DNA of 64,000 nucleotides, taken from Actinomycetes bacterium (GTDB lineage: Bacteria > Actinomycetota > Acidimicrobiia > Acidimicrobiales > Ilumatobacteraceae). Position 1 is the first letter of the stretch, and each line of letters starts with the position of its first letter. Positions 10,422-30,904 of this stretch are shown here, in pieces. The stretch spans positions 62,001 through 126,000 of the forward strand of contig JANYCT010000051.1 in NCBI GenBank assembly GCA_025360105.1. The letters run 5' to 3'. A program made the translations under genes and the position numbers. The notes under the pieces are model-generated. The model made no database searches. It saw only the letters and a program-made list of their open reading frames with translations, and had not been told where the DNA came from.

Positions 10422-11444
10422 ATGGATGTGACGATGATCCCCGAGGCGATCGATGCTGACGCGCCCGCGCCCACACCGCGCAAGCTCGTCGCCACCGATG
10501 GTCGCAGCGACCGCATCTTTCACAAGGGAGCCTCGTTCAGCGGCGTGCTGGTCATGGCGATCATGGTCGCCGTGGGGATGTTCCTCGCTATCGAGGCGGC
10601 GCAGGCGCTGCGTGTCACCGGCCTCTCGTTTCTCACGACATCGGAATGGCAGCCCGATCGCAACAAGTTCGGTATCGCAGCCGTTCTCCTCGGCACGGTA
10701 TTGATCGCTCTGGTGGCCGGTGTGATCGCGCTGCCCATCGCCATTGCGACTGCGTTGTTCATCACCGAGGTTGCGCCCGTGTGGCTCAAGGCCTCGCTCG
10801 TTGCTTTGGTCGATCTCATGGCCGCTGTACCGAGCGTGGTGTATGGGCTCTGGGGATTGTTTCTTTTGCAAGGAAACATCGTCGGGCTCTCGCGATGGAT
10901 CAATGGATGGTTCGGGTGGATTCCCTTCTTTCATGTCGCGCGCGCCGATCCAAACAGCCCGTTGTCGAGTGCAAGCGTCTACACCGCCTCCACATTTATC
11001 GCCGGTGTCGTCGTCGCGATGATGGTCATGCCCATCCAGTGCGTGGTCATGCGTGAGGTCTTTTCGCAGGTGCCCGGCGGCGAGCGCGAGGGCGCTTTCG
11101 CTCTGGGGTCTACCCGGTGGGGAATGATCCGCGTGGTGGCCCTGCCGTTCGGCCGCGGCGGCATCATCGGCGGCACGATGCTCGGCTTGGGCCGGGCGCT
11201 CGGCGAGACCATCGCTGTCTTGCTCATCATCTCGCCTCGCTTCGACATTAACTTCCACATTCTCGAAGCCGGCAGCAACTCGGTGTCGAGCCTGATTGCG
11301 TTGCGCTACAGCGAGTCGTCGGGCTTCGGTCTTTCGGCGCTGATGGCTGCGGGTCTGGCGCTGTTTGCGCTCACGCTCGTCGTCAACTTCACCGCATCGT
11401 GGTTCGTTGCCAGGTCGCGCTCGGGAGCGAGTAGCGAAGCATGA
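10422..11444 (+). CDS. PstC-like ABC permease (second Pst set)
   Basis: A 340-residue inner-membrane permease of the phosphate-type BPD_transp_1 family. After a ~35-residue N-terminal tail come about six membrane segments. The ATPase-docking EAA loop reads REGAFALGSTRWGMIRVVALP, given here as GAFALGSTRWGM, followed by GLGRALGETIAVLLI. The sequence is diverged from the canonical PstC at 29016 but keeps its layout. It overlaps the PstA-like gene by 4 bases (ATGA). It presumably forms a heterodimer with that protein and uses the ATPase encoded at 20117. The substrate is inferred to be phosphate or a related oxyanion. Confidence 0.88.
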   Translation: MDVTMIPEAIDADAPAPTPRKLVATDGRSDRIFHKGASFSGVLVMAIMVAVGMFLAIEAAQALRVTGLSFLTTSEWQPDRNKFGIAAVLLGTVLIALVAGVIALPIAIATALFITEVAPVWLKASLVALVDLMAAVPSVVYGLWGLFLLQGNIVGLSRWINGWFGWIPFFHVARADPNSPLSSASVYTASTFIAGVVVAMMVMPIQCVVMREVFSQVPGGEREGAFALGSTRWGMIRVVALPFGRGGIIGGTMLGLGRALGETIAVLLIISPRFDINFHILEAGSNSVSSLIALRYSESSGFGLSALMAAGLALFALTLVVNFTASWFVARSRSGASSEA

Positions 11445-12811
11445 CCGACACCATCATCACTCCTGCCGTCGACATCGACGATGTTGGTTCGCACCTGAGT
11501 GCCTCGCTTACGGCGCGGCGCATCGAGGTCGACGGCCCGAGCTCAACATCGCGCGACGACAGCGCGACCACCGTCATCCCCAAGCGGTCCGGTGCCCCGG
11601 CCACCAACTATCAGACGAGGCGCGCGCTCGGGCGGGCGTCACGTCAGGACCTGATGCTGATGGCTGGCGCGGGCGTCAGTGCGCTCTGCACCACGATGCT
11701 GCTTTTCGGCCGCCTCACGCCGATGCAGGGCACGCTCGGATTTATGGTCGTCGGCTTCGGCATTTTCGTCGCTACCTACGCCGTGCTGGTGTCGCTCACC
11801 GAAGATCGTCAAGCCGTGATCGACCGGGTGATGGCGGTGATGCTCACCTCCGCCGCAGTGCTGGCCGGTGGTGCACTGTTCTCGGTGGTGGTCTTCACGC
11901 TGTGGCGGGGCCGGCAGGCGTTGTTGAAATCGAACTTCTATCTCGAGGACATGAGCCGCACGGGCCCGCTCGATCCACTCAGCCAGGGTGGCATCGCCCA
12001 CGCCATCGTCGGCACGTTGATCATGATCACCCTTGCGTTGATCATCACCGTGCCGCTCGCCCTTGCGTGCGCGGTGTTTCTCAACGAAACCGGTGGCCGC
12101 ACCGCAGGCCTAGTGCGCACCGTCGTCACCGCGATGACGGCTCTGCCATCGATCCTTGCCGGCCTGTTCATCTTCGCCACCTGGATCCTCATCCTCGGTT
12201 TCGAACGCTCGGGTTTGGCCGCGGCGATTGCGATCAGCATCATGATGCTGCCGATTATTATTCGATCGGCCGACCTGGTCTTGCGGCTCGTGCCCGGCAA
12301 CCTGCGCGAAGCATCGTCGGCACTCGGTGCGCCGCACTGGCGCACGGTGTGGCACATTGTGTTGCCCACTGGCCGTTCTGGTCTCACTACGGCCGTCATC
12401 CTCGGCGTGGCCCGCGGCATTGGCGAAACGGCTCCCGTTCTGCTCACCGCTGGATTCACCTCGACCATGAATGTCGATCCCGTGAAGGGTCCGATGGTGT
12501 CGCTGCCCCTCGCTGCGTTCGAGTTCGTTCGTTCGCCCCAGCCGGCCCTGGTGGCTCGCGGCTTCGCCACCGCAGCAGTGTTGATGATCCTCGTCCTCAT
12601 TTTGTTCACCATTGCCCGCATCATCGGCGGCCGTCCGGCAGGCCGCCTCTCGAAGCGTCAAGCCCGCGCTGCGCTGGTGCACTCGGCGCACGACCGCGAG
12701 CGCATTGATGCCCGCAACCAAGCCAAGCGGCAGCCTGCTGCGCGCCAACCAGAGAATCGCCATCCCGACGGCCCGTTCCCCGACGGCCCATTCAACGAGG
12801 TGCTCGTATGA
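11441..12811 (+). CDS. PstA-like ABC permease with extra N- and C-terminal parts
   Basis: A 456-residue permease, well above the ~290 usual for PstA. About 60 polar residues and two additional membrane segments (residues ~70-120) precede the standard BPD_transp_1 core. The EAA loop is REASSALGAPHWRTVWHIVL, followed by GVARGIGETAPVLL as in PstA. The C-terminus adds ~55 hydrophilic, Arg/Pro-rich residues. The 4-base overlaps on both sides place it between the PstC-like gene and a PstS-like surface protein. The extensions may contact the coiled-coil proteins encoded upstream; that is inference. Confidence 0.88.
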   Translation: MTDTIITPAVDIDDVGSHLSASLTARRIEVDGPSSTSRDDSATTVIPKRSGAPATNYQTRRALGRASRQDLMLMAGAGVSALCTTMLLFGRLTPMQGTLGFMVVGFGIFVATYAVLVSLTEDRQAVIDRVMAVMLTSAAVLAGGALFSVVVFTLWRGRQALLKSNFYLEDMSRTGPLDPLSQGGIAHAIVGTLIMITLALIITVPLALACAVFLNETGGRTAGLVRTVVTAMTALPSILAGLFIFATWILILGFERSGLAAAIAISIMMLPIIIRSADLVLRLVPGNLREASSALGAPHWRTVWHIVLPTGRSGLTTAVILGVARGIGETAPVLLTAGFTSTMNVDPVKGPMVSLPLAAFEFVRSPQPALVARGFATAAVLMILVLILFTIARIIGGRPAGRLSKRQARAALVHSAHDRERIDARNQAKRQPAARQPENRHPDGPFPDGPFNEVLV

Positions 12812-14631
12812 GCCAGACACTCCATCCAACACGCCGGCGGTCACTCCGCCTGGCAGCGCTCGTCATCACCGGCGTCGCCGTTAGTGGAATCTCACTTCCG
12901 AGCGCCAGCGCTGATGGTTATCAGCGAATCTCGGGCGAGGGCTCGTCGTGGGCCGCGAACGCCATCGACGCGATGCGCGTGAACGTTCGTCAGTTCGGCA
13001 TCACCGTTGACTACAACCCCAGCGGATCAAGCGCCGGCCGCAAGAACTATCTGAACGGAACCGTCGATTTCGCTGCGTCGGACATTCCCTTCCAGTTCAA
13101 TCCGCAAGACGGTTCTGCACCTGAGAATCCAGCGCCCGGCAGCTACGCGTATATGCCCGTTACCGCTGGTGGTACCGCGTTCATGTACAACCTGATCATC
13201 AACGGCAAGCGCGTCACCAACCTGCGCCTGTCGGGCGAGAACGTCTCGAAGATCTTCACCGGTGTGATCACCCAGTGGAACGATCCTGCGATTCAAGCCG
13301 ACAATCCCGGTCTCGTGATGCCCGCTCGCACCGTGGTGCCGGTGGTGCGATCCGACGGCTCGGGCTCCACTGCGCAATTCACGCTGTGGATGATCGACCG
13401 CTTCCCAGCGATCTGGAACGCGTACTGCAAAGTGTCGGGTCGCGCGCCAGCCTGCGGCGACACATCGTTCTACCCAACGGTGCCCGGAATGATCTCGCAA
13501 TCGGGTGACCTCGGCATCGCGGGCTACGTGAGCCAGGGCTTTGCCGAAGGTGCGATTGGCTACGTGAACTACTCGTACGCGCTGGGTTCACAGTTCCCGG
13601 TGGCCAAGGTGCTCAATGCCGGTGGTTACTACACCGAGCCCACACCGCAGAACGTTGCTGTGTCGCTGCTACAGGCGCAAATCAACACCGATTCCAGTAA
13701 CCCGCAGAAGTATCTCACGCAGAACCTCACGGGTGTGTATACCGACACCGACCCACGCAGCTATCAGCTCTCATCGTATTCATACATGATCCTGCCGACG
13801 GTCGTTGCGGGTCAGTTCAACCTCGACAAGGGCAAGACGCTCGGCGCGTTCTCGTATTATGCGATGTGTCAGGCCCAGCAGGATTCAGCGTCGCTCGGGT
13901 ATTCACCAATGCCGCTGAACTTGGTGCAGGCGGGTTTCGAACAGATCCGCAAGATCCCCGGGGTCGTGGTCCAAGACATCGACATCACTACGTGTAAGAA
14001 CCCGGCATTCGGGCCCGACGGCACGAACCTGCTCGCACAAAACGCGCCGCAGCCATTGGCGTGCGACAAGCAAGGCATCGCGACGCAATGTCCCAATGGA
14101 ACCGCTGGATTGGCCAACGTCCCGACCGCGGTCTCAGGTGGTGGCGGTGCGACGGGTGGCGGTGCGACGGGTGGCGGTGCAGCGACGGGTGGCGGTGCAG
14201 CGACGGGTGGCGGTGCAACCGGAGGCGGTGCGACGGGTGGCGGCGCAACCGGAGGCGGCGCGGCAACCGGTGGCGGTGCGACGGGTGGCGGTGCGACGGG
14301 TGGCGGCGCCACGGGCGGAACTGCGACCACGATCGCGGGGGGCGCAGCCACGGGTGGCGGCGCGGCGACGGGTGACACCACCGGTCAGATCTGCGATGCC
14401 GACACAGGGATTTGCGGTGGCGGTGGCGCGTCGGCGGGCGGTGCAACAGCGGGTGGGGCATCTGCCGGTGGCGGTGCGTCGGTCGGCGCAGTGCTACCGA
14501 CGACACTCACTCAATCCTCTGGCTGGACGGCATCGCTCACCTTGGTGCTGCTCGTCATTGCGCTCGTACTCGCACTCATCCTCGCTCCGGCGATCGCGTG
14601 GCGATATTTCTCGAACAAGAGCACTGCATGA
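12808..14631 (+). CDS. membrane-anchored PstS-like protein with Gly-Ala-Thr stalk
   Basis: A 607-residue exported protein. A signal peptide spans residues 1-36 (RRRSLRLAALVITGVAVSG). A PstS-fold domain at ~38-400 keeps all four phosphate-binding loops: SGEGS at 42-46, SGSSAGRK at 72-79, DFAASD at 87-92 and RSDGSGS at 181-187. Residues ~440-525 are a GGGATGGGAT repeat, probably a flexible stalk. The C-terminus has one membrane helix and a short basic tail, so the protein should stand on the outer face of the membrane rather than be a lipoprotein. It overlaps both neighbours by 4 bases. Confidence 0.87.
   Translation: MSQTLHPTRRRSLRLAALVITGVAVSGISLPSASADGYQRISGEGSSWAANAIDAMRVNVRQFGITVDYNPSGSSAGRKNYLNGTVDFAASDIPFQFNPQDGSAPENPAPGSYAYMPVTAGGTAFMYNLIINGKRVTNLRLSGENVSKIFTGVITQWNDPAIQADNPGLVMPARTVVPVVRSDGSGSTAQFTLWMIDRFPAIWNAYCKVSGRAPACGDTSFYPTVPGMISQSGDLGIAGYVSQGFAEGAIGYVNYSYALGSQFPVAKVLNAGGYYTEPTPQNVAVSLLQAQINTDSSNPQKYLTQNLTGVYTDTDPRSYQLSSYSYMILPTVVAGQFNLDKGKTLGAFSYYAMCQAQQDSASLGYSPMPLNLVQAGFEQIRKIPGVVVQDIDITTCKNPAFGPDGTNLLAQNAPQPLACDKQGIATQCPNGTAGLANVPTAVSGGGGATGGGATGGGAATGGGAATGGGATGGGATGGGATGGGAATGGGATGGGATGGGATGGTATTIAGGAATGGGAATGDTTGQICDADTGICGGGGASAGGATAGGASAGGGASVGAVLPTTLTQSSGWTASLTLVLLVIALVLALILAPAIAWRYFSNKSTA
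14137..14373 (+). repeat. GC-rich in-frame repeat encoding a GGGAT stalk
   Basis: Imperfect tandem copies of a 12-15 base unit like GGTGGCGGTGCGACG encode alternating GGGAT and GGGAAT units. The number of units is likely to vary between strains. Confidence 0.9.
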
Positions 14632-17339
14632 ACGCGCGCCATCGTTCACGCGCGTGGCTGCTCGGCCCACTCGCCATTGTCGTGATGACTTCGATCGCTG
14701 CAGCCGGCGCAGGTGCCGCAGCCGATCCTGTTGCGGGCAGCCAAGGTATCGACACGTCGATACCGGCCACCGACTCTCAGTTGACCGTGAATGGTCGCGG
14801 CACCTTCGCAAATCTTGCCATTACGGTCAACCAGACGCAGAAGCTGAACAACCAGGCGGTGTCGATCACATGGACCGGCGGCACGCCGACGAAGGCCGGT
14901 CCCGGTCGCTTCGGTAGCCAGTACCTGCAGATAATGCAGTGTTGGGGCGAAGACGACGGCTCCGTGCCTGGTAACCCTGGGCCTGCGCCGGAGCAATGCG
15001 AGCAGGGGGCAGCCGCAGCTACCTACGGTGGACTCTCGGGGACGGCCTACCCGAACGGTTTTGCCATGAGCCGTATCATCTCGCGCACCGATTGGGACAA
15101 CTTCGATCCAGCCATTGGGGTCGCCGACAAGCGAACCACAAACGTATGGCTGCCTTTTCGGGCTGTCGGGGGCACCGTTATTGGTATTCACACCGACCCG
15201 ACGTTCAATCCGGCGCAAGGCGGCGGCAACTTCTGGTTGAACCCCTATTTCAATATCATCACGACGAATGAAATTGCCGGAGCGGTCACTGGCCCTGATG
15301 GCAAGGGCGCTGAACTGTTCCAAGTACTCACCGGCGTCGAGTCATCCGGACTCGGATGCGGACAACGGTCCGAACCGATCGCGGGTGGTGACAAGAAGAT
15401 TCCCAAGTGTTGGATCGTCGTCGTGCCGAGAGGAACGCCGACTGCCGAGAACGCCGGAACCCCTTTTGGTAGCACGGCGGACCAAGTCGGAGTATTCAGC
15501 TCGCCTGTTTCGCCCCTCGCATGGAAGAACCGCATTGCGATCCCGCTTGGATTCAACCCCGTCGACTCGCCGTGCGTGCTCGGGGCAGACCAGCGTCGGA
15601 TCTCGGGTGGTGAGCTTGCCCTCTCGGCCGTGGCCAGTTGGCAGCCCGCACTCTGCACCGGCGGAGCGCTGCCGCCGTTTTCCTACGCTCCAATCAGCGA
15701 CGGTGCCGCCCGCCAACAGCTGGTTTCAGGGCAATCCGGGGCGCCGGGCATGGTTGTCGTGTCGCGACCGCTGAACCCGGACTCGTACGATCCAAAGAGC
15801 CCGGTGCTGTACTCGCCCATCAGCGCCCTAGGACTGACGATTGGTTTCAACATCGAGCGAAACCCCACGCCCGATGCGCCTTTCGGCGCACAGCAACTGT
15901 CGGGGGTGCGCATAAGTCACCTCAATCTCACCCCCCGTTTGGTCGCAAAGCTACTCACCCAGTCGTACAAGCAGGCCGTCACCATTGTTCAGCCACCCGA
16001 CTATTCCTGGGCTTTCGCGAACCCTGGTCACCTCGGTCTCGACCCGGATTTTCAGCAGTTCAACCCGGAGTTCGCCCAGCTCCAGATAGCCGATGGGCGC
16101 ACTTTTAGCGGTCTACAACTTCCGGCCGGCAATTCCGACGCGGCTCAGCAGATGTGGGAGTGGGTGTTGTCGGATCCTGAAGCGGCGGCATGGCTGAGCG
16201 GTACACCCGACGAGTGGGGCATGAAAGTGAATCCGGCGTACGCCACTTCGGCCAGTGCGAACTCGAACGGCATCGCATTTGGCGACCCGATCCCGAGTTC
16301 ATTTCCGAAAGCGGATCCGTACTGCTATCAAGCCGCGCCACGCGGGCCGGGTAACTCAATCGTGCCGCCACCACTATGTGGTACCGATTGGATGCCCTAC
16401 AAGCGAGGATTCTCCGACGCCGCTCAAGTCACGCGCTCGGCAGCAGATCCCGCCAAGGTCGTCGAGAACCCATTCGCCACTTCCTCCTCCGACGTCTGGA
16501 AGCGTGACGTGCCGCAGTACCTCGGTCGGCGTGACATGCTCGCAATGACGGACACTGCGTCCGCCACGCAGTTCGGTCTGCAGACGGCCAGCCTCAGCCG
16601 ATCCGGAGACAATGGCCCGAATCGTTCGTTCGTCGCCGCCGATTCGGCGACCCTCACGGCTGGACTTGCGTCGATGGCACCAAAGTCGGAGCCAACGGTG
16701 CTCGAACCGAACCCGACAGCTGTGGCGCCCGGTGCATACCCGCTGACCGCAATCAACTACGCCGTAACCCAGCCACTGTCCCTCGATGCCACGGCGCGCT
16801 CGCAGTATGCAGCATTCATCGACTACGCGGTGGGTCCCGGTCAGGTGCCTGGACTCGACCTCGGGCAACTCCCTCGCGGATACGTGCCACTGCCTGACAA
16901 CCTGAAGGCTCAAGCCACCGCCACAGCTGAGCAGATACGAACTCTTGTCGCAGTTCCTGACCAAACGACAACGACGACCGCAGCGCCGACCACGTCTACT
17001 GATGCCGCTCCGACAGCGACCTCACCCCGACCGAAGCCGTCGCGCCCGATCGTCGTCACGCCGCCGGCAACGCTCGCTCCGATCACTACCGAGCCGGCAA
17101 CGACAGTGCCAGCTGTGACCACGACCACCGTTGATGTCGCCGACCAACCGGCACCGTCGGCACCGACGGTGCTCACGCCCATCGTGGGTTTGGCGCGCAG
17201 CCGATACGCAGTTCCTGGGCTTGCCATCGTTGCTCTCGGCTCTGCGCTCGGCGCGTTCGAGGTCACCAAACGTCCTCGCCGTAGGCGCGGCCGCGGCGTG
17301 GACGCTGCGAACGAATCCGTCAAGACAGCGGGCGACTGA
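14628..17339 (+). CDS. large PstS-like exported protein with C-terminal anchor
   Basis: A 903-residue protein starting in a 4-base overlap. It has a signal peptide (residues 1-33) and a large Cys-containing extracellular region, with QIMQCWGEDDG near residue 105. Its later half resembles the substrate-binding fold: SPISALGLTIGFNIE, then AYPLTAINYAVTQPL and ARSQYAAFIDYAVG, then LPRGYVPLPDNL, as at PstS C-termini. A Thr/Pro-rich stalk (~770-840) precedes one membrane helix and an RPRRRRGRG tail. The classic phosphate loops are not obvious, so binding is uncertain. It may be an accessory surface partner of the PstS-like protein before it. Confidence 0.75.
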   Translation: MNARHRSRAWLLGPLAIVVMTSIAAAGAGAAADPVAGSQGIDTSIPATDSQLTVNGRGTFANLAITVNQTQKLNNQAVSITWTGGTPTKAGPGRFGSQYLQIMQCWGEDDGSVPGNPGPAPEQCEQGAAAATYGGLSGTAYPNGFAMSRIISRTDWDNFDPAIGVADKRTTNVWLPFRAVGGTVIGIHTDPTFNPAQGGGNFWLNPYFNIITTNEIAGAVTGPDGKGAELFQVLTGVESSGLGCGQRSEPIAGGDKKIPKCWIVVVPRGTPTAENAGTPFGSTADQVGVFSSPVSPLAWKNRIAIPLGFNPVDSPCVLGADQRRISGGELALSAVASWQPALCTGGALPPFSYAPISDGAARQQLVSGQSGAPGMVVVSRPLNPDSYDPKSPVLYSPISALGLTIGFNIERNPTPDAPFGAQQLSGVRISHLNLTPRLVAKLLTQSYKQAVTIVQPPDYSWAFANPGHLGLDPDFQQFNPEFAQLQIADGRTFSGLQLPAGNSDAAQQMWEWVLSDPEAAAWLSGTPDEWGMKVNPAYATSASANSNGIAFGDPIPSSFPKADPYCYQAAPRGPGNSIVPPPLCGTDWMPYKRGFSDAAQVTRSAADPAKVVENPFATSSSDVWKRDVPQYLGRRDMLAMTDTASATQFGLQTASLSRSGDNGPNRSFVAADSATLTAGLASMAPKSEPTVLEPNPTAVAPGAYPLTAINYAVTQPLSLDATARSQYAAFIDYAVGPGQVPGLDLGQLPRGYVPLPDNLKAQATATAEQIRTLVAVPDQTTTTTAAPTTSTDAAPTATSPRPKPSRPIVVTPPATLAPITTEPATTVPAVTTTTVDVADQPAPSAPTVLTPIVGLARSRYAVPGLAIVALGSALGAFEVTKRPRRRRGRGVDAANESVKTAGD

Positions 17340-17340: not shown

Positions 17341-18150
17341 ATGTTGGCACAACTCGTTGAATGTGGATCTCGTTGGCGCTTGGGCGCAGCGATTGCAGCT
17401 GTCGTCGCTGGCGGCGCACTCGCCACACCGACTGCCTGGGCAACTGTCGATGCGCCGGTTCGTTCTGGGCCAGTAGTGGTCACCAACTCGATAATCCGTA
17501 CAGAGACGCTCACCCACGGAAACGGTGCCACCGAGTTCAGCCTGCGCCTCCCCGACGGGGCGGTGTGCCCCGGAGATAGCGCGAACGACCAATGGCGTCT
17601 ACAGAGCTTCATGATTCCGGCTGCCGATGACCCCACGACGATTCGGTACGGGTCGATCGGCCCCGAGCCGCAGACCGTCGGTCGCTCGTCGCTGTTCATG
17701 TTGGATACCCGTCCGTTTGTCCACCAACTGACCCGGCGCAACACCGGCAAAGGCGAGCCAGGGGTCATTTCGGTGCTGCCGGGCTTCAGCCTTGCGGTGC
17801 AGGCGAGCGAGGCGATCCCCACCGGCGAATATCGCATCGGGATCGCATGCACAAATTTCGGCAAGACCGCGGTGTATTGGGACACCGAGATCGCTGTCAC
17901 CGTTTCGCCTGATGGCAAGGCAGCCGGGCTCGAGTGGCGGTTGGCGAGCGTTTCCCCAGACGTCATCGCGTCGGAGACGGCCTCCCGGAATTGGGTGACA
18001 CCCGTCGTGTTCGGCGGCCTCGCGGCATTGCTGATCGCAATGTTGCTCTGGAAGCGCCGCTCTCGACAAGCCACCACCGAGCGGGCGAGCGCGTCTGCCT
18101 CGACCCGAACTATTCATCAGACCACAACCCTCTCCAAGGAGTCGCAATGA
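17341..18150 (+). CDS. exported anchored protein, short member of the NKNPASSP-type domain family
   Basis: A 269-residue protein: signal peptide (residues ~1-32), an extracellular domain, a membrane helix VFGGLAALLIAMLLW and a basic tail. The domain has the frame CPGDS...NDQWRLQSFMI...GEYRIGIACTNFG..VYWDTEIAVTV (short pieces quoted), matching the pattern in the proteins at 18147, 23468 and 36452, though the central NP.SSP.GLI.SIP motif is replaced. It starts one base after the previous stop and overlaps the next gene by 4 bases. Function is unknown; probably a beta-sandwich surface subunit. Confidence 0.72.
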   Translation: MLAQLVECGSRWRLGAAIAAVVAGGALATPTAWATVDAPVRSGPVVVTNSIIRTETLTHGNGATEFSLRLPDGAVCPGDSANDQWRLQSFMIPAADDPTTIRYGSIGPEPQTVGRSSLFMLDTRPFVHQLTRRNTGKGEPGVISVLPGFSLAVQASEAIPTGEYRIGIACTNFGKTAVYWDTEIAVTVSPDGKAAGLEWRLASVSPDVIASETASRNWVTPVVFGGLAALLIAMLLWKRRSRQATTERASASASTRTIHQTTTLSKESQ

Positions 18151-19109
18151 TCGATGTCAACACCCTCAGGCTCGCGCCTCGACGTCGTCGACTGGCGAGA
18201 GACCTCGCCCGCACCGGCTCTGCATTCGCCACGGCGATGTTGGCGGCCACTCTCTTCGTCGGACATTCGCCGATCGCCTCGGCCGTGGCCGAGAACGCTG
18301 GCGCAGCCTTGATTAAAGACAGCACGAACACCGCCACGCTGGACAGCGGTGGCAGTGCGACGGTGTTCGCGATGACACCTCCACCGGGCGGAGCGTGTCC
18401 TGGTAGCGGCGCGCAGACGCCCCCGTACCGTTGGCAGGCGTTCTTCGTCGCGTCGTCGGTTGACCCGGGTGCGCTCACTTTCGCGAGCGGACCCAATGCG
18501 GTTGGCTCGGCGTTCGTCAGCCCGATGTTCTCGGCCGCAGGCGACCCGCTCAACAACAAGAACCCGGCATCGAGCCCGCTGGGGTTGATCAACAGTATCC
18601 CGACGATGTCCTTCGGTGCGTTCCTGCCCGGCAACGTGCCAGCAGGCGACTACAAGATCGGTTTTGCGTGCACGCTTTCTGGCGCCACCGTGAAGTTCTG
18701 GTCGACGACCATCACCGTCACGACGGCAGCGGGCGATTCACCTGCCGGCTTCACCTGGGCCACTGCTGCCTCCACGCCGACAACGACCACGGTCGCACAA
18801 GCCACCACCACCACGGCTGCGGGCGCTACAACGACCACCACCCCGGCCGGGGCGACGACTACTACGACCGCCGCCGGTGCCACCACAACCACGATCAAGC
18901 CTGGAGCGACCACGACGACGCTGGCGGGTTCCGGCGGCTCCACCACAACCACGCTGTTGGGCTCGGGCTCGGTGACCACCACCACCATCAAGGCCGTCAC
19001 CTTGCCCGGCACGGGTTCGGAGTCGATGTCGCTATGGGTCTGGGCGCTACTCGCGCTCGTCTTCGGCCGTATGGCGCTGCTGCTCGGCCGATCGATCAAG
19101 GTGCTCTAG
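18147..19109 (+). CDS. LPGTG-type surface protein with Thr-rich stalk
   Basis: A 320-residue exported protein. After a signal peptide (~1-48) comes a domain with PPYRWQAFFV, NKNPASSPLGLINSIPTMSF and GDYKIGFACTLSG, diagnostic of a small paralogous family in this window. A stalk of TTTT/AGATTTT units follows. The C-terminus has LPGTG at residues 286-290, a hydrophobic helix and a basic end, the standard sortase sorting signal. The next gene encodes a sortase-fold protein, but its active site looks lost, so whether this signal is cleaved here is open. Confidence 0.8.
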   Translation: MIDVNTLRLAPRRRRLARDLARTGSAFATAMLAATLFVGHSPIASAVAENAGAALIKDSTNTATLDSGGSATVFAMTPPPGGACPGSGAQTPPYRWQAFFVASSVDPGALTFASGPNAVGSAFVSPMFSAAGDPLNNKNPASSPLGLINSIPTMSFGAFLPGNVPAGDYKIGFACTLSGATVKFWSTTITVTTAAGDSPAGFTWATAASTPTTTTVAQATTTTAAGATTTTTPAGATTTTTAAGATTTTIKPGATTTTLAGSGGSTTTTLLGSGSVTTTTIKAVTLPGTGSESMSLWVWALLALVFGRMALLLGRSIKVL

Positions 19110-19118: not shown

Positions 19119-20078
19119 ATGGTGACCACCACTGCGACCCTGCGGACGTCTGAGCCTGCGCCCTCCCGGCGCCGGTTCGCACGGTTGCGCGCCCACAAGC
19201 CCGCTGAGGTGAAGGGTGATCTGCCGCCGTTGAGTCCACGCCTGCAACTCGTGCGCGCCGCGTTGGTGTTGGTCTTCGTGCTCACGTTCACGTTGGTCAT
19301 GCAACTCGTGGTCGTCAGCGCGTTGCAGCATTCCGCATCGCAGGGCCGAGCATTCGACGCGTTCCGAGGCAAGCTTGCCAATGGCACCGCGCCCATCGGT
19401 CCGGCAGATCAGAATGGCCGCACATTGAGCCTCGGAACGCCCGTGGCGTATCTGGAGATTCCGTCGATTGGCGTGAAAGAGGTGATCGGCGAAGGCACAA
19501 CGTCGAGCGTGTTGTTCGACGGTCCCGGACACCGTCGCGATACGCCGCTGCCGGGTCAAATCGGAACGAGCGTGGTGTTCGGTCGTCGGGCCGCGTTCGG
19601 CGGGCCGTTCGCCGACATCTCGGCGTTGGCCAAGGGCGCGAAGATGACCGTCACCACAGGCCAGGGAAAGTTCGAGTTCACCGTCATCGGGGTGCGCTAC
19701 GAAGGCCAGCCAGCGCCTGCTCGGCTTGCTGCGGGCAAGGCTCGACTGAATCTCGTGAGCGCCGCGGGCACCGCGTTTTTGCCGGACGGCGTGGTGCGCG
19801 TCGATGCTGATCTTGATGGCACAGCGATTGTCGGCCCACCGCGAACGATCAGCGCTGCGGGCCTGCCCGCTTCCGAACGGGTGATGGCCGGCGACTCCAG
19901 CACGCTCTGGGCATTGGCGCTATGGCTGCAGGCAATGATCGCCCTGTCGATCGGTGTGGTGTGGGCATGGCATCGGTGGGGTCGGGCACAGGCGTGGGTC
20001 GTGTTCCTGCCTCCGCTCATGCTCATCGGTCTGTCGGCCTCGGGCGAACTCGCCCGTCTACTACCGAATCTGTTGTGA
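19119..20078 (+). CDS. sortase-fold membrane protein lacking catalytic His and Cys
   Basis: A 319-residue protein: N-terminal membrane helix (~46-70), sortase-like beta-barrel (~100-235) and two extra C-terminal helices (~264-308). The barrel is recognisable from YLEIPSIGVKEVI, FDGPGHRRDTPLPGQIGTSV and GGPFADISALAKG. At the position of the catalytic His in the class E motif 'GHRTTYGAPF' it has GRRAAFGGPF (Arg156), and at 'LTLTTC' it has LNLVSAAG (Ala215). Arg227 in VVRVDADL is retained. I infer a pseudoenzyme, perhaps structural or a chaperone for its LPGTG neighbour. The motif alignment is by eye. Confidence 0.75.
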   Translation: MVTTTATLRTSEPAPSRRRFARLRAHKPAEVKGDLPPLSPRLQLVRAALVLVFVLTFTLVMQLVVVSALQHSASQGRAFDAFRGKLANGTAPIGPADQNGRTLSLGTPVAYLEIPSIGVKEVIGEGTTSSVLFDGPGHRRDTPLPGQIGTSVVFGRRAAFGGPFADISALAKGAKMTVTTGQGKFEFTVIGVRYEGQPAPARLAAGKARLNLVSAAGTAFLPDGVVRVDADLDGTAIVGPPRTISAAGLPASERVMAGDSSTLWALALWLQAMIALSIGVVWAWHRWGRAQAWVVFLPPLMLIGLSASGELARLLPNLL

Positions 20079-20116: not shown

Positions 20117-21613
20117 GTGAACGACGAGGAGCCAACCGCTGTGACATTCGAATCGATGGACACCACATGGAGCGCCCCGCTCGCAGCCGGTGCGGTCCCG
20201 GCCAAGGAGCTCGTCTCCGTCGCGGGGGCATCGGTGGTGCAGCTCGTGCGCGGCGACGCGCTGGGTCCCGACACGATGGTGATGGAGTTGCACGCCGCCA
20301 CGGTCACGGTGACCAATACGCGTATCGTCGCGGCCGATGGCGACTTCGCGTGGGAGTGGCTCGTCGCCGATCTCGAAGCGGTGATTCATGGCGCCGATGA
20401 GCCGTGGACGATCTTCATCGTGCCCGGTATCTCCGACTTCGGTGTGATGATCCCCGCTGAGCAGGTGGAGCAATTCCGAAACGCACTGGCCACGCTGCCC
20501 GGAGTCACCGTTCGTCATCAACAAGGGCTGGCACCCCGTGCACGTGAACCGATCTCGACGGTGGTTCCGGTGATACCCGTTGTCGCGGCGCCCGCCCCGC
20601 CCGCGAACGCCGCCCCAGCCGTGCTTGTACCGATGATCGTCCCGGCGCCGCAAGCCGCGACGATTGATTCCGCTGATCTGCTCGAGGCGCCGTTTGCCGG
20701 TGATGCCGAGCCCGACGCGATTACTGCGGCCGGTGCTGCAACTGTTGTCACCGGCGGGGTCGCTGCCAAGCGTCGTTTCCGCATGCGCGACCGTCACCCG
20801 GATGCATCTGATTCATCACTGCTCACCGCGCCGGCAACCCTCACCGGCATCGATGCGCGCGACATCTCGGCCTGGTTCGGCACGCACCAAGTGCTCGATC
20901 GCGTGTCGCTCGACATGGCGGCGGGCGAAGTCACGGCACTCATCGGACCGTCGGGCTGCGGTAAGTCGACCTTCTTGCGCATCCTCAATCGCATGCACGA
21001 GATGATTCCCTCGGCATCCCTTGCCGGTGAGGTACTGCTCGACGGTCACGACATCTACGACCCCAATCGCAAGCTCACCGATGCCCGCCGCGAAATCGGC
21101 ATGGTGTTCCAGAAGCCGAACCCCTTTCCGGCGATGTCGATCTACGACAACGTGTTGGCGAGTTTCCGGCTCACGGGCCTCAAGGCCAGCGTGGAACTGA
21201 AAGACGAAACCGTCGAGTCGTGCCTTACCAAGGCAGGACTGTGGCTCGAGGTTCGTGACCGACTGCGCGAGCCGGGTGGCGGCCTCTCCGGCGGTCAACA
21301 GCAGCGTCTGTGCATTGCCCGCGCTCTCGCAATTCGACCCCGCGTGTTGTTGATGGACGAGCCGTGTTCCGCGCTCGATCCCACCTCCACTCGCCGCATC
21401 GAAGAGACCGTGATGGAGCTCGTGTCGGAAGTGACGATTGTGATTGTCACCCACAACATGCAGCAGGCCGCGCGTGTCTCCAACCGTTGCGCGTTCTTCC
21501 TTGCTGAGCAGGGAACACCCGGTGTGATCGTGGAGCACGGACCCACCGACGCAATGTTCGGTTCGCCGCAGGATTCGCGCACGAACGACTACGTCACCGG
21601 CCGTTTCGGCTGA
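20117..21613 (+). CDS. PstB-type ATPase with ~240-residue N-terminal extension
   Basis: A 498-residue protein. Residues ~245-498 are a full PstB-like ABC ATPase: Walker [10 protein letters not shown] at 277-285, LSGGQQQR signature, Walker [14 protein letters not shown] and the switch-His segment [13 protein letters not shown]. The C-terminal DYVTGRFG equals that of the canonical PstB. Residues 1-135 form an unrecognised small domain ([19 protein letters not shown]) and 140-240 an Ala/Pro linker. PstB is normally ~250-290 residues. The GTG at 20117 is the chosen start, but the gene begins within short GTGAAGG repeats, so it is not certain. It should power the PstC/PstA-like pair at 10422-12811. 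Confidence 0.88.
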
Positions 21614-21736: not shown

Positions 21737-21827
21737 GGCCAATCCGACGCCATGTTGACCCGTCATGATGGTTCCTGTCCGGAGAACTTCGGACAGCTCC
21801 ATCACCCGAAGGGACCGCAACATCACC

Positions 21828-23402
21828 ATGTTGACAGCAACCACGAAGAAGCGAATGGCATTCGCCGTCGCACTCACCGCCACCCTTGGCGCCGCCACCC
21901 TTCCGGGTGGGGATGCCAAGGCTGACCCACAGCAGTATTCGGCCTACGTCGGCGTCGGCTCCGACACAATCCAAGATGTCGTGAACGCATTTGCCGGTAC
22001 AACGAACAACTCCTACTACCAGCCCATCAAGAGCACGAATGGAACGCAGATCATTTCATTCGACGCCAGCATTCCTGCCGGAGTGGCAGACAGTTGTGTG
22101 ACCACAAAGCTCGGTGGCCCCACCTTCACTCGTCCGAACGGCTCCACCGGAGGCCGCAAGGCTCTCTACGCGTCGAGCGGACTGTCAGCGGCTGGCTGGA
22201 CTGGCGTCGCCATCAACGGCGTGGCCACCTGCGCGACCGCGGTTGACATCTCCGGTCAGATCGACTTTGCCCGCTCGTCGGCTGGTCCCTCTGCCGGCGA
22301 TCTCGGCACCGACTTGACGTACGTTCCGTTCGCCCGTGACGGCGTGAGCTTTGCCTACTACCGGAATGCCGGTAGCCCGGTAACGAGCCTCACGCGTGCG
22401 CAGCTGACATCACTGTTCACCACCGGGCCGCAGACCATCAGCGGCGTCCGCATTGTTCCCTGTGGTATCCAGACCAGCTCGGGTACCTTCGGCTTCTGGA
22501 ACACCGTGACCACAGCGAGTTCCGGACAGGAAAACGCAGCGACTGCCGAGTGCAACGCACTCATCGCCGCTGGTCGTTCGCAAGAGAACGACGGCGCTGG
22601 GCTGGTTGCCCGCGGTAACGCGCTGGCCGCGATCACGACCGCGTCGATTGCCGCCACGACCGTCACGCAAGGCGTCGCGGCGTCTGCCGGCCCGCCGGTT
22701 GTCGTGGCAGTCAACGAAGTGCAGCGCATCGTGCCGCTGTACGGCCCCACCGGTGGAACGTTCACGCTCACCTTTGGTGCCAACACCACCGCCACGTTGC
22801 AGGCCAGTGATACCGCCGCCACCGTTCAGACCGCTTTGCAGGGTCTGGCCAGCATCGGCGCCGGCAACGTCACCGTCACGGGCGGCCCGCTCACGTCGGG
22901 AGCACTCACGCTCACCTTTGGCGGCACGCTCGCAGGCACCAACGTCGCACAGGTCACCGCAAGCGCCTCGTTCACGGGCGCCTCACATGCGGGTGACCAA
23001 GTGGTCATCGGCTTCTCGGCTGGTTCGTGGATTTCCCAGGCCAACGGCGCCGCCAACAACACGCTGTCGTCGGCCCTCATGGGTTCGATCACCGACAACG
23101 GCAGCGGCACCAACCTTGGTAACCCGGTGACCGGTGCATCAGCTCCGAACTACGGAGCGAGCTCGTCGTTCTACGCCGACGCGATCTTCGGTCGCAACGT
23201 GTACATCGTGATGCCTACTTCGGTTGCCACCGGCGGCGGAAACGCACAGATCAAGAGCCTGTTCGTGAGCAGCACCAACTCGGCGAACGACGCCAAGATC
23301 TGTCTGGAGACAGCCACGATCACCAAGTTCGGCTTCCTGCCCGTGCCCGCTAACTGTGGTTCCACCGCCCTCAAGGGCACATGGATCACTGGCGCTTCGT
23401 GA
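21828..23402 (+). CDS. secreted PstS-fold protein with inserted Ig-like repeat
   Basis: A 524-residue exported protein with a signal peptide (~1-31, KKRMAFAVALTATLGAATL) and no anchor. It is PstS-like: VGVGSDTIQDVVNAF, PNGSTGGRKALYASS, QIDFARSSAGPS and QTSSGTFGFW sit where the ligand loops belong. Between about residues 285 and 390 an extra domain with GTFTLTFGANTTATLQ, IGAGNVTVTGGP and ALTLTFGGTLAGTNVAQ is inserted. This is a beta repeat seen in many actinobacterial and planctomycete surface proteins. Start at 21828 gives the best signal peptide. The ligand is unknown. Confidence 0.8.
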   Translation: MLTATTKKRMAFAVALTATLGAATLPGGDAKADPQQYSAYVGVGSDTIQDVVNAFAGTTNNSYYQPIKSTNGTQIISFDASIPAGVADSCVTTKLGGPTFTRPNGSTGGRKALYASSGLSAAGWTGVAINGVATCATAVDISGQIDFARSSAGPSAGDLGTDLTYVPFARDGVSFAYYRNAGSPVTSLTRAQLTSLFTTGPQTISGVRIVPCGIQTSSGTFGFWNTVTTASSGQENAATAECNALIAAGRSQENDGAGLVARGNALAAITTASIAATTVTQGVAASAGPPVVVAVNEVQRIVPLYGPTGGTFTLTFGANTTATLQASDTAATVQTALQGLASIGAGNVTVTGGPLTSGALTLTFGGTLAGTNVAQVTASASFTGASHAGDQVVIGFSAGSWISQANGAANNTLSSALMGSITDNGSGTNLGNPVTGASAPNYGASSSFYADAIFGRNVYIVMPTSVATGGGNAQIKSLFVSSTNSANDAKICLETATITKFGFLPVPANCGSTALKGTWITGAS

Positions 23403-23467: not shown

Positions 23468-25348
23468 ATGCATACCAAACTCAAGCAGGCCTTGACTGGG
23501 GCGGCGGCTATCACCGTCGGCGCAGTCGGCCTGACCTTCAGCCCGGCGCTCGCGCTCGGCGGCACCACACTGACACCCGGTACCGGTAACTCCGCCACCG
23601 TGTTCACGTTCATCCCGCCTGCGGGAGCATCGTGCACCGGCGGCGCAGGCGCCGGCTACCGTTGGCAGACCTACATGGTCTCGAACGCAGTCACCAGCTC
23701 AGCGCTCACCTTTGCCGCTGGTCCTGTTGCCATCGCGGGCCAGGTCGTGTTGCCGCTCTATGACGGCAGTGGCACCCCGATCATCAACAAAAACCCCGCG
23801 TCGAGCCCGGTTGGCTTGATCAATGGCATCCCGACGATGTCGTTCTCGGCAATCACCGCAGGAACGATTCCTGCGGGTGACTACAAGATCGGCTTCGCCT
23901 GCTCACTGGCGGGCGTGATCGAGAATGGCAAGTTCTGGGAGCAGACGATCACGATTGCCCCGACGCCAACCACCGCAGTCGGTGGACCTGCCCAGTTCAT
24001 CTTCGGCCAGCCAGCCGCAGCGTTTGCACCGACAGTCGGCGCACTCACCGCGGGTGACCAGTCGTTGGCTGGCACGCTCAGCGATGCGGGGCTTTCGATT
24101 CCCGCAGTCACGGGCTACACCATCACGGCTACGCCTTTCGGCGCAGGAGCCGGTACCGCGGTAACGCCGTCGCCTCTGACCCCGTCAGCGGCTGGAGCGT
24201 TCTCGTTCACCGGGTTGACCAACGGTGTTTCGTATCACGTGTCGGCGACCGCCACGAACAGTGTCGGCACCAGCGCGGCCTCGGCCAACTCGGACGGCAC
24301 GCCCAACCCGCTGCCGTACTTGCCAGTCACAGGTCTGAGCGTCACAACCGGGATCAACCAGCTCACCGTGGCCTGGACCAACCCGAGCGACCTCGCCAGC
24401 CACCCGTTGCAGGTGCCTGCCGGATACGACATCGTCGTGACCGGATCGGGAGCCGGCACCGGAACGTTCAACAGCGCAAGCAGCCCCTACGTCGTGACCG
24501 GCCTCACCGCAGGTGTTCCCTACACGATCACGGTGCAGCCGAAGTACACCTCGCCGTACTCGGCACCGGTGGCCTCCAGCAGCAACAACATTGCGAACCC
24601 GCCGACGCTGCTGTACCAGGACATCACCGTGACCCGCCCCGTGGGTCAATTGGTGATCACTCAGCGCTGTGGCGTCTTTGCGGCACGTACCGCCGAGGCT
24701 GCGACAGCAACGTTCCCCGGTATCCCGGCGCTTGCGGCATCCGCTGACCTGATCGGTACCGCCCCCACCACGGGTGCGGCCGCTGGCGGCCTAGCTGATG
24801 GTCTGTTCAACCAGTACCCATACCCAGTGGACTCGAACGGCCTTTCGAACGCCGTGTACCCGACCCATTGCGGTATCAACCTGGGAATTGGCAAGCTCGT
24901 GACCGCTGGCACCTACGCCGGCGATTACTTCTCCGCTTACGGCCAGATCAATCAGGTCACTGTCGTGGATACCCGTGACACCGATCCAGGTTGGACCGTC
25001 ACAGGAACCATGAGCAACTTCACCAAGACGGGCGTTTCCAGTGGCGGCACAGCCGTGTCGGGTACGCAGACCTTCAGCGGTAACTACCTGGGCTGGTCCC
25101 CGGTGCTCACCGGTGACTCGGGTGCATCACTCGGCAACCTGTACAACCAGACCGTCACGATTCCTGTCGGCACCGTTGCTCCGACCACTGCGACCGGCAG
25201 CGGCCTCGTGCAAGGCAAGGTCATGGCGAATGCTGCACCTGGTGTTGGCATGGGTATCGCCACACTCGATGCCGGTGTGAAGCTGCTGATCCCGCTCACT
25301 GCAGTGAACGGTGTCTACAGCGCAGTGCTGACCTTCAGCGCCGTCTGA
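23468..25348 (+). CDS. secreted multi-domain protein with Fn3-like repeats
   Basis: A 626-residue exported protein with a strong SD (AAAGGA) before ATG 23468. Signal peptide ~1-30. The N-terminal domain has GYRWQTYMV, NKNPASSPVGLINGIPTMSF and GDYKIGFACSLAG, shared with the proteins at 18147 and 36452. Two fibronectin type III-like repeats follow (GYTITATPFG...GLTNGVSYHVSATATN, quoted in part, and VAWTNPSD...VTGLTAGVPYTITV). The C-terminal ~200 residues, with ITQRCGVFAAR, look like another beta domain. No anchor is present. Very high Thr/Gly/Ala content suits an abundant surface or released protein. Confidence 0.8.
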   Translation: MHTKLKQALTGAAAITVGAVGLTFSPALALGGTTLTPGTGNSATVFTFIPPAGASCTGGAGAGYRWQTYMVSNAVTSSALTFAAGPVAIAGQVVLPLYDGSGTPIINKNPASSPVGLINGIPTMSFSAITAGTIPAGDYKIGFACSLAGVIENGKFWEQTITIAPTPTTAVGGPAQFIFGQPAAAFAPTVGALTAGDQSLAGTLSDAGLSIPAVTGYTITATPFGAGAGTAVTPSPLTPSAAGAFSFTGLTNGVSYHVSATATNSVGTSAASANSDGTPNPLPYLPVTGLSVTTGINQLTVAWTNPSDLASHPLQVPAGYDIVVTGSGAGTGTFNSASSPYVVTGLTAGVPYTITVQPKYTSPYSAPVASSSNNIANPPTLLYQDITVTRPVGQLVITQRCGVFAARTAEAATATFPGIPALAASADLIGTAPTTGAAAGGLADGLFNQYPYPVDSNGLSNAVYPTHCGINLGIGKLVTAGTYAGDYFSAYGQINQVTVVDTRDTDPGWTVTGTMSNFTKTGVSSGGTAVSGTQTFSGNYLGWSPVLTGDSGASLGNLYNQTVTIPVGTVAPTTATGSGLVQGKVMANAAPGVGMGIATLDAGVKLLIPLTAVNGVYSAVLTFSAV

Positions 25349-25452: not shown

Positions 25453-25459
25453 TCCGCAC

Positions 25460-26575
25460 ATGAACACCCAGCGACGTTTCCTTCAGTGGGCCACCACAGT
25501 GTTGGTGGCCTTCGTCGCGTTTGCTTTGCCCGCGCACGCTGCCTCAGCAACGGTGCCGCCCCCATCGCCTGCGCCGGTCACCAGTGACCCGGCGCAACAA
25601 GAAATCGTCGAGAGTTGGGCACTGTCGCCTGCCGGCTCGCTCGATCCCACACAAGCCGGCAACCGTCCGGAACTCTCCTACGTCACCGATCCCGGCGCGG
25701 TCATCGAGGACGCGGTCACGCTCTACAACTACGGCAACGTGCAGCTCACCTTCCGGGTGTACGCCACCGATGCGTTCAACAGCGCAGACGGCAGTTTTTC
25801 GCTATTGCCCGGCGCCGACAAGCCCAAGGCCGCAGGGTCGTGGGTATTCGTCTCCCAAGAGAACGTCACGGTGCCGCCGCGCAAACAGGTGACCATTCCG
25901 ATCACCATCAAAATCCCAGCCGATGTTGCCCCGGGCGATCACCCGGGTGCCGTGGTGGCATCCAACTCCGTCGAGAGCAACAACACCACGGGTCCCGTTG
26001 TGAACCTCGATCGCCGCACCGGCACGCGCATGTACATTCGCGTCAATGGTCCCTTGACCCCCGAGCTCGCCGTCGCCGATGTGGTCACTGACTACCACCA
26101 GGCCCTGAATCCGCTCAGTGGTTCGGCCACGGTGACCTACCGGGTCGAGAACCGCGGCAACGTGCGCATGAGCGGTAAAGCCACGGGCAAGATCACTGGC
26201 CCGTTCGGGCTGGCGTCACGCTCCATCAAGCTCCCTGACATTCCCGAACTGTTGCCAGGCGGCAAGGTCACAGTGACCGCAGAGGTCAAAGACGTGCCGG
26301 CGCTGTTTGTTGCATTCACAACGATCGAGGTAAAGCCAACAGGTGGAGGCGATGTCGGTAAGGCAACGGCATCGAGCGGCACCGATCTCACGTTTGCTCC
26401 GCCACTCGCGTTGCTCCTGGTTCTACTCTCGTTGCTGTTCGGTCTTCTGGGTTGGCGTGCGTTCCGGCGCCACCAGGACAATGCGGCAGCCCAGCTCGAC
26501 GCCGATGCAGAACAACTCGATGACCAGCAGCACGGGCAACATCCCGAGCATGAGCCGCAACATCAGCCATCGTGA
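25460..26575 (+). CDS. DUF916-like (WxL-interacting type) anchored surface protein
   Basis: A 371-residue protein: signal peptide (~1-32), extracellular beta domains, membrane helix LALLLVLLSLLFGLLGW and a polar Gln/His/Glu tail. The region with DAVTLYNYGNVQLTFRVYATDAF (quoted part: NYGNVQLTFRVY) and VPPRKQVTIPITIKIPADVAPGD resembles DUF916, a peptidoglycan- and WxL-binding module of Gram-positive surface proteins. A second Ig-like part has VTYRVENRGNVRMSG. The 4-base GTGA overlap with the next gene suggests a paired product. Confidence 0.75.
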   Translation: MNTQRRFLQWATTVLVAFVAFALPAHAASATVPPPSPAPVTSDPAQQEIVESWALSPAGSLDPTQAGNRPELSYVTDPGAVIEDAVTLYNYGNVQLTFRVYATDAFNSADGSFSLLPGADKPKAAGSWVFVSQENVTVPPRKQVTIPITIKIPADVAPGDHPGAVVASNSVESNNTTGPVVNLDRRTGTRMYIRVNGPLTPELAVADVVTDYHQALNPLSGSATVTYRVENRGNVRMSGKATGKITGPFGLASRSIKLPDIPELLPGGKVTVTAEVKDVPALFVAFTTIEVKPTGGGDVGKATASSGTDLTFAPPLALLLVLLSLLFGLLGWRAFRRHQDNAAAQLDADAEQLDDQQHGQHPEHEPQHQPS

Positions 26576-27705: not shown

Positions 27706-27776
27706 TAGCAGGCCGTGATAACCCTCGCTCCCTACCATGAATCTTGGTTACAACCCAACTCAAGGAGAACCACAAC

Positions 27777-28907: not shown

Positions 28908-28929
28908 CGTCGCAAATCTCGACGAGAAG

Positions 28930-28960
28930 GCCGGGCCCTTCGGGGCCCGGCATTCTTGTT
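28930..28960 (+). terminator. intrinsic (partial) terminator between pstS and pstC
   Basis: GCCGGGCCC, loop TTCG, GGGCCCGGC (28930-28951) form a perfect 9-bp stem with a stable tetraloop, followed by ATTCTTGTT. It probably terminates most pstS transcripts, with read-through into pstC. Confidence 0.85.
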
Positions 28961-29015
28961 GACAGGCGGTTGTCGCGACCGTGATTGAATCTCACTGCAC
29001 TTGATGAAGGAACGT

Positions 29016-29972: not shown

Positions 29973-30904
29973 CAGCCGTTATCGACAACACGTCGCCCGC
30001 GCCGGCAATGGTGCCACTGTTGTCCGATCTGTCGAGCGTGAGCGGTCGGCGACGGAACAAGAACATGGTGATGACCGTGCTCATGGGTGTGTCAGTGGTG
30101 GTGGTCGGTTTCGTGCTACTGCTCGTGCTCATCACCGTGGTCCGAAAGGGCTGGTCGATCGTTGTCAGCGAGTTCCCGAAGTGGTTCACCAAGGACATCC
30201 AGCTCTCGCCTCGCCGTGCAGGTCCGGGTATGAAAGCTGCGATCGTGGGCACCATCGTTGCGACCGCTACGGCCACCGTCATTGCAGTGCCATTGGGCAT
30301 CGCGGGCGCGATCTACCTCAACGAATACGGCAAGCGCTCGGCGTTCGCACGCACCCTGCGCTTCCTCACCAACGTGATGGCCGGTGTGCCGTCGATCGTG
30401 ATGGGCTTGTTCATCTATGTGTTCTGGGTGGTGCCGCGCGGCGTCGATGGCCTCAACGCATTCAGCGGCGCGTTGGCCCTAGCGTGTCTGATGCTGCCGA
30501 TCGTGGTGCGCTCCACCGAGGAGATGTTGCGCCTAGTGCCACAGAACCTTCGCGATGCCAGCCTCGCGCTCGGCGCGACAGCGAGTCGCACCACGCTCAC
30601 CGTCGTCATCCCCAAAGCAGCACCCGGCATCATCAGCGGCAGCCTGCTCGCCATTGCCCGCGCTGCCGGCGAGACAGCGCCGTTGATCTTCACCGTCGGT
30701 GCTGCCAAGGCCACCAACTGGAACCCGTTCTCAGGCACCAACACCTCGTTATCACTACAAATCTATGCCAACGCGAAGGAGAGCTTTCCCACAGCTCAAG
30801 AACGTGCCTGGGGTGCTGCGCTCACGCTCATCGCGCTCGCGTTTTTGTTCACCTTCGGGGCGCGAGCACTGTCGGGTCGACTCTCGAGGACTACCGAGTC
30901 ATGA
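29969..30904 (+). CDS. pstA: phosphate ABC permease PstA
   Basis: A 311-residue permease of normal PstA length. The EAA loop is [20 protein letters not shown] and is followed by [17 protein letters not shown], typical of PstA. GTG 29969 overlaps pstC, and its stop overlaps the pstB ATG. Comparison with the PstA-like protein at 11441 shows the latter's extra helices and tail. Confidence 0.95.

Follow-up and report, generated by a model that had tools for sequence, protein, structure and literature searches.

Gene organisation of the locus

The window, as we call the whole stretch of 64,000 nucleotides analysed here, comes from the genome of an actinobacterium of the Ilumatobacteraceae. On its forward strand lies a run of genes encoding, in this order, a PstC-type permease, a PstA-type permease, an anchored PstS-type binding protein, a PstS-like protein of 903 residues, the small protein D280, an LPGTG protein, the sortase-like protein that is the subject of this report (the pseudo-sortase) and a PstB-type ATPase (Table 1). 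Up to the pseudo-sortase gene, successive genes overlap or almost touch, at 11441-11444, 12808-12811, 14628-14631, 17339/17341, 18147-18150 and 19109/19119. A separate, canonical Pst operon is located downstream (27744-32450) and encodes a PstS with a lipobox-like start, PstC, PstA, PstB and PhoU. Three proteins are encoded ahead of PstC, between 7590 and 10414; two of them have a hydrophobic tail end, and relatives occur at loci L037, L040 and L042. A promoter scan of the window found none, a terminator scan gave 11 candidates versus 7.3 (sd 2.9) in shuffled sequences, and a tblastn search against plasmids returned one weak, uninformative match.

The PstS-type protein passes the PF12849 model, has PstS 8ods as its nearest match in the PDB and scores 164.6 bits against TIGR00975, below the cut-off of 205; a long linker of Gly/Ala/Thr repeats (about 14130-14500) precedes its C-terminal anchor. 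No RSDGSG-like motif is present in the 903-residue PstS-like protein. The protein encoded directly upstream of the pseudo-sortase ends in an LPGTG motif, a hydrophobic stretch and a basic end; a first-pass annotation of the locus had noted an LPGTG protein next to the sortase-like one. The ATPase scores just under the equivalog cut-off of 343.2 bits of TIGR00972, the top model among those listed, and its N-terminal extension of about 240 residues lacks a convincing Pfam match. E545 looks PstS-like by eye (DISGQIDFARSS and SSGTFGFW), while searches of Pfam and NCBIfam at E 1 gave no match.

Table 1. Genes of the cluster and codons of the pseudo-sortase discussed in the text (window positions).
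Feature	Position	Strand	Basis and remarks
PstC-type permease, non-canonical system	10422-11444	+	PF00528 35.0 bits; co-occurrence
PstA-type permease, non-canonical system	11441-12811	+	PF00528 48.5 bits
PstS-type binding protein with C-terminal hydrophobic anchor	12808-14631	+	PF12849 111.7 bits; RSDGSGS kept
Degenerate membrane-anchored PstS-like protein, 903 aa (S906 family)	14628-17339	+	TIGR00975 20.1 bits (weak); profile begun from other loci
D280, relative of the LPGTG protein; small, secreted, C-terminal hydrophobic segment	17341-18150	+	
LPGTG protein, 320 aa, motif at residues 286-290	18147-19109	+	
Pseudo-sortase	19119-20078	+	ORF with ATG start, 319 aa; PF04203 match; orthologues L006-L016, L035, L036
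Arg139 codon, class E tyrosine position	19533-19535	+	Tyr in 0.88 of active rows
Arg156 codon, catalytic His position	19584-19586	+	Alignment to 5uus_A and relatives
Ala215 codon, catalytic Cys position	19761-19763	+	Profile alignment to 5go6_A
Val225 codon, catalytic Arg position	19791-19793	+	Alignments to 5go6_A and active relatives
PstB-type ATPase	20117-21613	+	TIGR00972 336.1 bits over residues 245-498
E545, secreted, recurrent in close clade	21765-23402	+	PstS-like by eye only
WxL-like fn3 protein	23474-25348	+	PF13731 15.9 bits (cut-off 25); recurrent order
WxL-interacting-protein-like membrane protein	25457-26575	+	PF06030 27.0 bits (cut-off 27.3); recurrent order

Sortase domain and catalytic positions

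The pseudo-sortase consists of an N-terminal membrane helix, a sortase domain at about residues 100-235 and two C-terminal membrane helices. Its assignment by the first-pass annotation to the sortase family, whose enzymes attach proteins to the bacterial cell wall, is upheld by a match to the Pfam Sortase model PF04203 (44.4 bits, cut-off 26.6). The class E sortase model is the top NCBIfam model, at 53.3 bits far under its cut-off of 160, and the top PDB sequence matches are the sortases 5uus_A, 5go5_A, 5go6_A and 4d70_A. A profile of the family matched 55 distinct PDB sequences, all annotated as sortase or LPXTG transpeptidase with the exception of 5go6 ("putative secreted protein") and 5hu4 ("cysteine protease"). 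With class E sortases such as SrtE1 of Streptomyces coelicolor the protein shares the sortase domain, the core GPGH...PGQ.G..V.G.R...G.PF and the N-terminal membrane helix.

According to a recent paper (PMC13257024), all sortases, whatever their class, contain a His-Cys-Arg triad. In the window protein, unlike class E sortases, the three positions are occupied by Arg156, Ala215 and Val225. The segment VVFGRRAAFGG, containing Arg156, aligns with AVAGHRVGKGA of 5uus_A, and the site of the TLXTC motif reads NLVSA, ending in Ala215; the arginine and alanine that the first-pass annotation placed at the catalytic His and Cys are thus confirmed by alignment. Its statement that the active-site arginine is retained as Arg227 does not hold. 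The catalytic arginine (RLIVWAHL or RLVVHADL in 5go6_A and active relatives) aligns with Val225, two residues before Arg227, and the column of Arg227 holds Trp, Leu or Ile in L012, L013 and L016. The assignment, it had been stated, would be overturned by an alternative His and Cys located at the active site. The protein of 319 residues contains no cysteine at all, which makes an alternative active-site cysteine impossible, and its only histidines are at 26, 71, 138 and 285. Two related pseudo-sortases, L111 and L121, have two cysteines each, at window positions 155 and 164 on either side of the old His loop, where they possibly form a disulfide.

Residues that contact the substrate are also altered. 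According to PMC5148588, Tyr229 and Arg329 of SrtE1 contact the sorting signal, and Tyr229, in the beta3/beta4 loop, is thought to read it. Judged from the GPGHY motif, Arg139 is the probable counterpart of Tyr229, so that the equivalents of Tyr229 and Arg329 in the window protein would be Arg139 and Val225.

The C-terminal helices had been called unusual for a sortase. They are present in the protein; however, in 48 of the 51 active relatives with GHR and Cys the alignment to the family profile extends across them as well. The helices are therefore inherited and are no special mark of the window protein, and we rejected them as a hallmark of pseudo-sortases. Arg286, located between the two, is invariant in alignment A1 and has a frequency of 0.65 in active relatives. 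AlphaFold2 (AF2) models of low confidence have helices at about 40-87, 260-287 and 290-318. Their pLDDT was 48, both for the sequence alone (P0001) and for the three-row alignment A2 (window, L035 and L036), and a Foldseek search with the second of them found no match below E 0.97; for these reasons the models were not taken as evidence for the fold, nor did they allow the sortase groove to be inspected.

Distribution of the catalytic loss, phylogeny and selection

Relatives were sought in 298 genomes of the order, 395 of the class and 396 of the phylum, sets that overlap, and an extra scan of named genomes added L035 (Acidimicrobiaceae) and L036 (Actinomycetes), both of them close orthologues from MAGs. 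The comparison comprises 106 loci: the window, three sortases of the same genome that have both His and Cys, L035, L036 and 100 fetched stretches. The latter cover every listed class-search match of at least 154.2 bits, while lower class-search matches and most matches from the order and phylum searches fall outside the 106; the rows were selected with a profile built from pseudo-sortases.

Both His and Cys are present in 51 of these rows (His in 49 of the 49 active rows compared at that column), neither in 52, and the remaining three (L052, L149 and L157) combine His with Ser in place of Cys. The loss, which the first-pass annotation had proposed to trace in homologues from other genomes, is therefore not local, since 55 of the 106 rows are without Cys and 52 of these are also without His. 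Arg replaces His in 50 of the 52, Lys in one and Ala in one. The Cys position of the 55 Cys-less rows is taken by Ser in 26, Ala in 22, Thr, Met and Gly in two each and Val in one; the catalytic Arg is retained in 0.36 of them, and the 18 rows closest to the window mostly have Val there (0.78). Retained enzymatic activity, with Ser or some other residue standing in for Cys, would fit the frequent serine, the three retained histidines and the fraction keeping the arginine, but is difficult to reconcile with Ala in 22 rows and Thr, Met, Gly or Val in another seven, with the complete lack of cysteine in the window protein, with the loss of His in 52 rows and with the valine found at most Arg positions in the close clade. 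We regard it as highly improbable.

In a maximum-likelihood tree from which the trait columns had been removed, the 55 Cys-less sequences form one side of a single, weakly supported branch (SH-aLRT 56), among active class-E-like sortases; loss of Cys is one change on this tree. The placement of L149 and L157 with the other Cys-less rows is not firm, and they possibly represent a second, separate loss. These two loci, with the catalytic His kept and Ser for Cys, have neither Pst genes nor the PstS-like partner described below within 8 kb. The Cys-less rows fall into 21 group codes at family level (20 if L149 and L157 are set aside), besides the two named MAGs. Four of the 21 fall outside the class: L129 (G742), L130 (G820), L131 (G576) and L132 (G771), family members with Pst-type neighbours, one of them from a genome of 9.9 Mb.

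In the six pairs computed, dN/dS was 0.10-0.24, two pairs having dS above 1.4 and the pair L008/L009 differing at very few codons. Where tested, the pseudo-sortase gene is under purifying selection. Since the 55 sequences share the catalytic loss through one change on the tree and dN/dS is well below 1, the loss exceeds what chance would produce. A decaying, functionless sortase gene would account for the missing triad, but not for the uniform use of Arg, instead of a mixture of residues, in place of His in 50 of the 55 rows, nor for the conserved linkage to a partner gene; we rejected it on the dN/dS values and leave it next to no probability. Pseudoenzymes, in which catalysis is lost while the fold is kept and conserved within a clade, are a known kind of protein. 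The family of the window protein is such a conserved pseudoenzyme and not a product of decay, in agreement with the conserved, non-enzymatic pseudo-sortase that the first-pass annotation had envisaged.

Linkage to a PstS-like partner protein

A profile begun from ten PstS-like proteins, themselves neighbours of pseudo-sortases, detected a gene of the S906 family less than 8 kb away, in any arrangement, at 49 of the 55 Cys-less loci and at none of the 51 active loci. It lies within 500 bases in 32 of the 55, again versus none of the active loci. On the same strand and less than 4.5 kb upstream it is present at 41 Cys-less loci (less than 500 bases away in 27) and at no active locus. The partner gene is directly downstream at L115, L116, L118, L119 and L179, and this reversed order favours a functional tie over inherited position. 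In the close clade, the genes for D280 and the LPxTG protein, not the partner gene, adjoin the pseudo-sortase gene and sit between the two.

The six Cys-less loci without a partner are L041, L044, L121, L123, L149 and L157. The contigs of the first four contain 1,578, 674, 3 and 148 bases of upstream sequence, respectively; in L041 these 1,578 bases hold an LPxTG gene and a piece of PstB instead of the partner. In the L041 contig, of 3,697 bases, the LPxTG and pseudo-sortase genes are flanked on either side by a PstB piece, the result of a rearrangement or an assembly fault. A converse search of 198 genomes yielded 15 strong matches to the partner profile (E 1e-130 or better), weaker matches, of mixed PstS kinds, being left uncounted. 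Twelve are beside a pseudo-sortase, five of these in genomes whose protein was part of the profile, and for the other three the contig ends within 288 bases of the match.

Among ten partners from other loci, PBP_like_2 matched six (five above its cut-off) and TIGR00975 eight, all below cut-off; none of 11 family members scanned met a Pfam or NCBIfam model of its own. A crude hydropathy rule places a hydrophobic segment at the C-terminus of 40 of the 48 family members with 300 bits or more, and three of the eight others (L115, L116 and L118) are cut at contig ends. The partners of L050, L052, L113, L135 and L137 have an N-terminal stretch that weakly resembles the model of an enediyne antibiotic chromoprotein.

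The RSDGSG motif, which we take to have a role in phosphate binding, occurs in similar form in 31 of 39 PstS1-type proteins near Cys-less sortases versus 3 of 48 upstream-neighbour ORFs, a set that also takes in close-clade LPxTG proteins and a few ORFs read in the wrong frame. It is found in one of 24 S906-type ORFs. From these counts, the degenerate sortase pairs with a degenerate binding protein, while the anchored PstS of the transporter mostly keeps the motif.

Linkage to a Pst-type transporter

A Pst-type gene, defined as one scoring at least 100 bits to a Pst protein of the window at a distance of at most 8 kb, is near 46 of the 55 Cys-less loci versus one of the 51 active loci. The top Pst genes of the 46 loci correspond to the window's non-canonical set, except for one PstB that is nearer to the canonical one; the sole active locus with a Pst neighbour, L151, matched the canonical set. 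The ABC ATPases beside many active loci score 47-70 bits to PstB, under the 100-bit rule, and were left uncounted. The nine Cys-less loci without a Pst neighbour are L121, L122, L123, L134, L135, L149, L157, L179 and L184, most of which have less than 8 kb of sequence on at least one side. In L122, L134, L135, L179 and L184 the partner is present and a Pst-type gene, by the same rule, is absent; only L134 of these five has about 8 kb on both sides. Encoded in the vicinity of the L134 pair are an fn3 protein, a protein of the WxLIP type (PF06030, 30.7 bits) and an unrelated ABC ATPase pair of the branched-chain type.

Fisher's test of Cys loss against Pst linkage gives p of about 1e-19, but it ignores relatedness and was not counted as support, because the tree shows one change and hence one independent pair. 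The association is thus one event that has long been conserved, not a repeated one, and with a single independent pair no significance can be attached to it.

The neighbourhoods also bear on a role as regulator or partner subunit of the active sortases in the same genome. Such sortases exist in the window's genome, but the constant neighbour of the family is the PstS-like gene, and no second sortase ORF of at least 45 bits was found in the 55 Cys-less stretches (one row per locus); this role is very unlikely.

LPxTG and WxL proteins

An LPxTG-type protein, recognised by its motif, hydrophobic stretch and basic tail, is near 15 of the 55 Cys-less and 4 of the 51 active loci. Thirteen of the 15 cases are among the 18 closest rows, usually directly upstream of the pseudo-sortase gene, and in most of the wider family an LPxTG gene is absent from the surrounding 8 kb. 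Loci of the close clade, and in part L134, combine the LPxTG protein with a second small anchored protein, E545, the WxL-like protein and the WxLIP-like protein.

In the first-pass annotation, the suggested role was one of holding or presenting the substrate, here the LPGTG protein; the pseudo-sortase would bind the sorting signal uncut, and anchoring by real sortases would be delayed or directed in this way. The frequent LPxTG neighbour in the close clade and the presence of three His- and Cys-containing sortases in the same genome are consistent with this. The replaced substrate-contact residues and the wider family, mostly devoid of LPxTG genes, argue against it, and as a general role it was rejected, an LPxTG neighbour being present at 15 of the 55 loci versus a PstS-like protein at 49 and a Pst-type transporter at 46. 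We consider it unlikely. The genome's own three sortases could process and anchor the LPGTG protein, and in the close clade the pseudo-sortase may have a special role towards it.

The cluster resembles the CscA-D cell-surface complexes (Siezen et al. 2006, PMC1534035) in combining a DUF916/WxLIP-like membrane protein, a WxL-like protein and an LPxTG protein. It differs from them in the length of the LPxTG protein (320 residues versus 90-140 for CscD), in the sub-threshold scores of its WxL and WxLIP matches (Table 1) and in its connection with a Pst-type operon and a pseudo-sortase.

A probable non-enzymatic partner in a phosphate-type import system

As in a PstSCAB importer, genes of the PstC, PstA and PstB type and for a PstS bearing RSDGSG form one gene run. 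Unlike in that system, the PstS is anchored C-terminally, a degenerate PstS-like protein and a pseudo-sortase are added, and the canonical operon is separate. From class E sortases, the window protein also differs in its two C-terminal membrane helices, shared by the active relatives studied here, and in its setting within an ABC-transporter operon. Since the catalytic residues are lost, yet the gene is kept in many actinobacteria, mostly beside those for a PstS-like protein and a transporter, the pseudo-sortase is probably a non-enzymatic part of a phosphate-type system. More specifically, we propose that its partner in the membrane is the PstS-like protein, usually in company with a distinct importer of the PstSCAB type. 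We judge this explanation on balance probable, though by a modest measure; binding between the two proteins is part of what we infer.

The following sequence of events and interactions may be envisaged. The ancestor would have been a class-E-like sortase bearing the two C-terminal membrane helices; its catalytic residues were lost, once according to the tree, in an actinobacterial lineage, and the inactive protein would have been retained in a fixed association with a PstS-like protein that is degenerate and mostly membrane-anchored. The two proteins would bind each other in the membrane, the former grip on the sorting signal now holding the membrane-proximal part of the PstS-like protein, uncut and non-covalently. 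Surface binding proteins might thereby be docked or positioned at the PstC/PstA permease, or ligand capture might be extended outward. In the close clade, the same gene cluster also encodes LPxTG and WxL-type surface proteins. The near-fixed Arg156 suggests a new, constrained use of the old catalytic pocket; binding of an acidic group would be a guess at its nature.

Alternatively, the pseudo-sortase might be a sensor, in which the membrane hairpin and the cytoplasmic N-terminus relay the loading state of the PstS-like proteins to the transporter or a regulator. The fixed position of the gene next to those for a binding protein and a transporter, and the invariance of Arg286 between the C-terminal helices, would be expected of such a device. 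However, Arg286 is common in active relatives too, and no linked regulator was seen among the neighbours, which were partly typed; the chances of a sensor seem small.

The proposed partnership with the PstS-like protein can be taken one step further: the obligate pair may be an undescribed receptor module of an ABC importer, the sortase grip having become a non-covalent means of retaining a binding protein at the permease. This we offer tentatively, as plausible but on balance doubtful. In the open-access literature (subscription papers and preprints being outside the scope of the search), we found neither an inactive or pseudo-sortase family nor a sortase gene within a Pst operon, and a sortase pseudoenzyme linked to a binding protein from an ABC importer appears to be a new form of pseudoenzyme.

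A match to PF04203 alone would mislabel such proteins as sortases, which calls for caution in annotation. The existence of a clade without the triad, under purifying selection and with a single partner gene, points to a use of the sortase fold that needs no catalysis. The PstS-like partner family gains a candidate function, and both proteins are directly testable. If the reading as a receptor module is true, a transpeptidase fold has been recruited as a transporter subunit.
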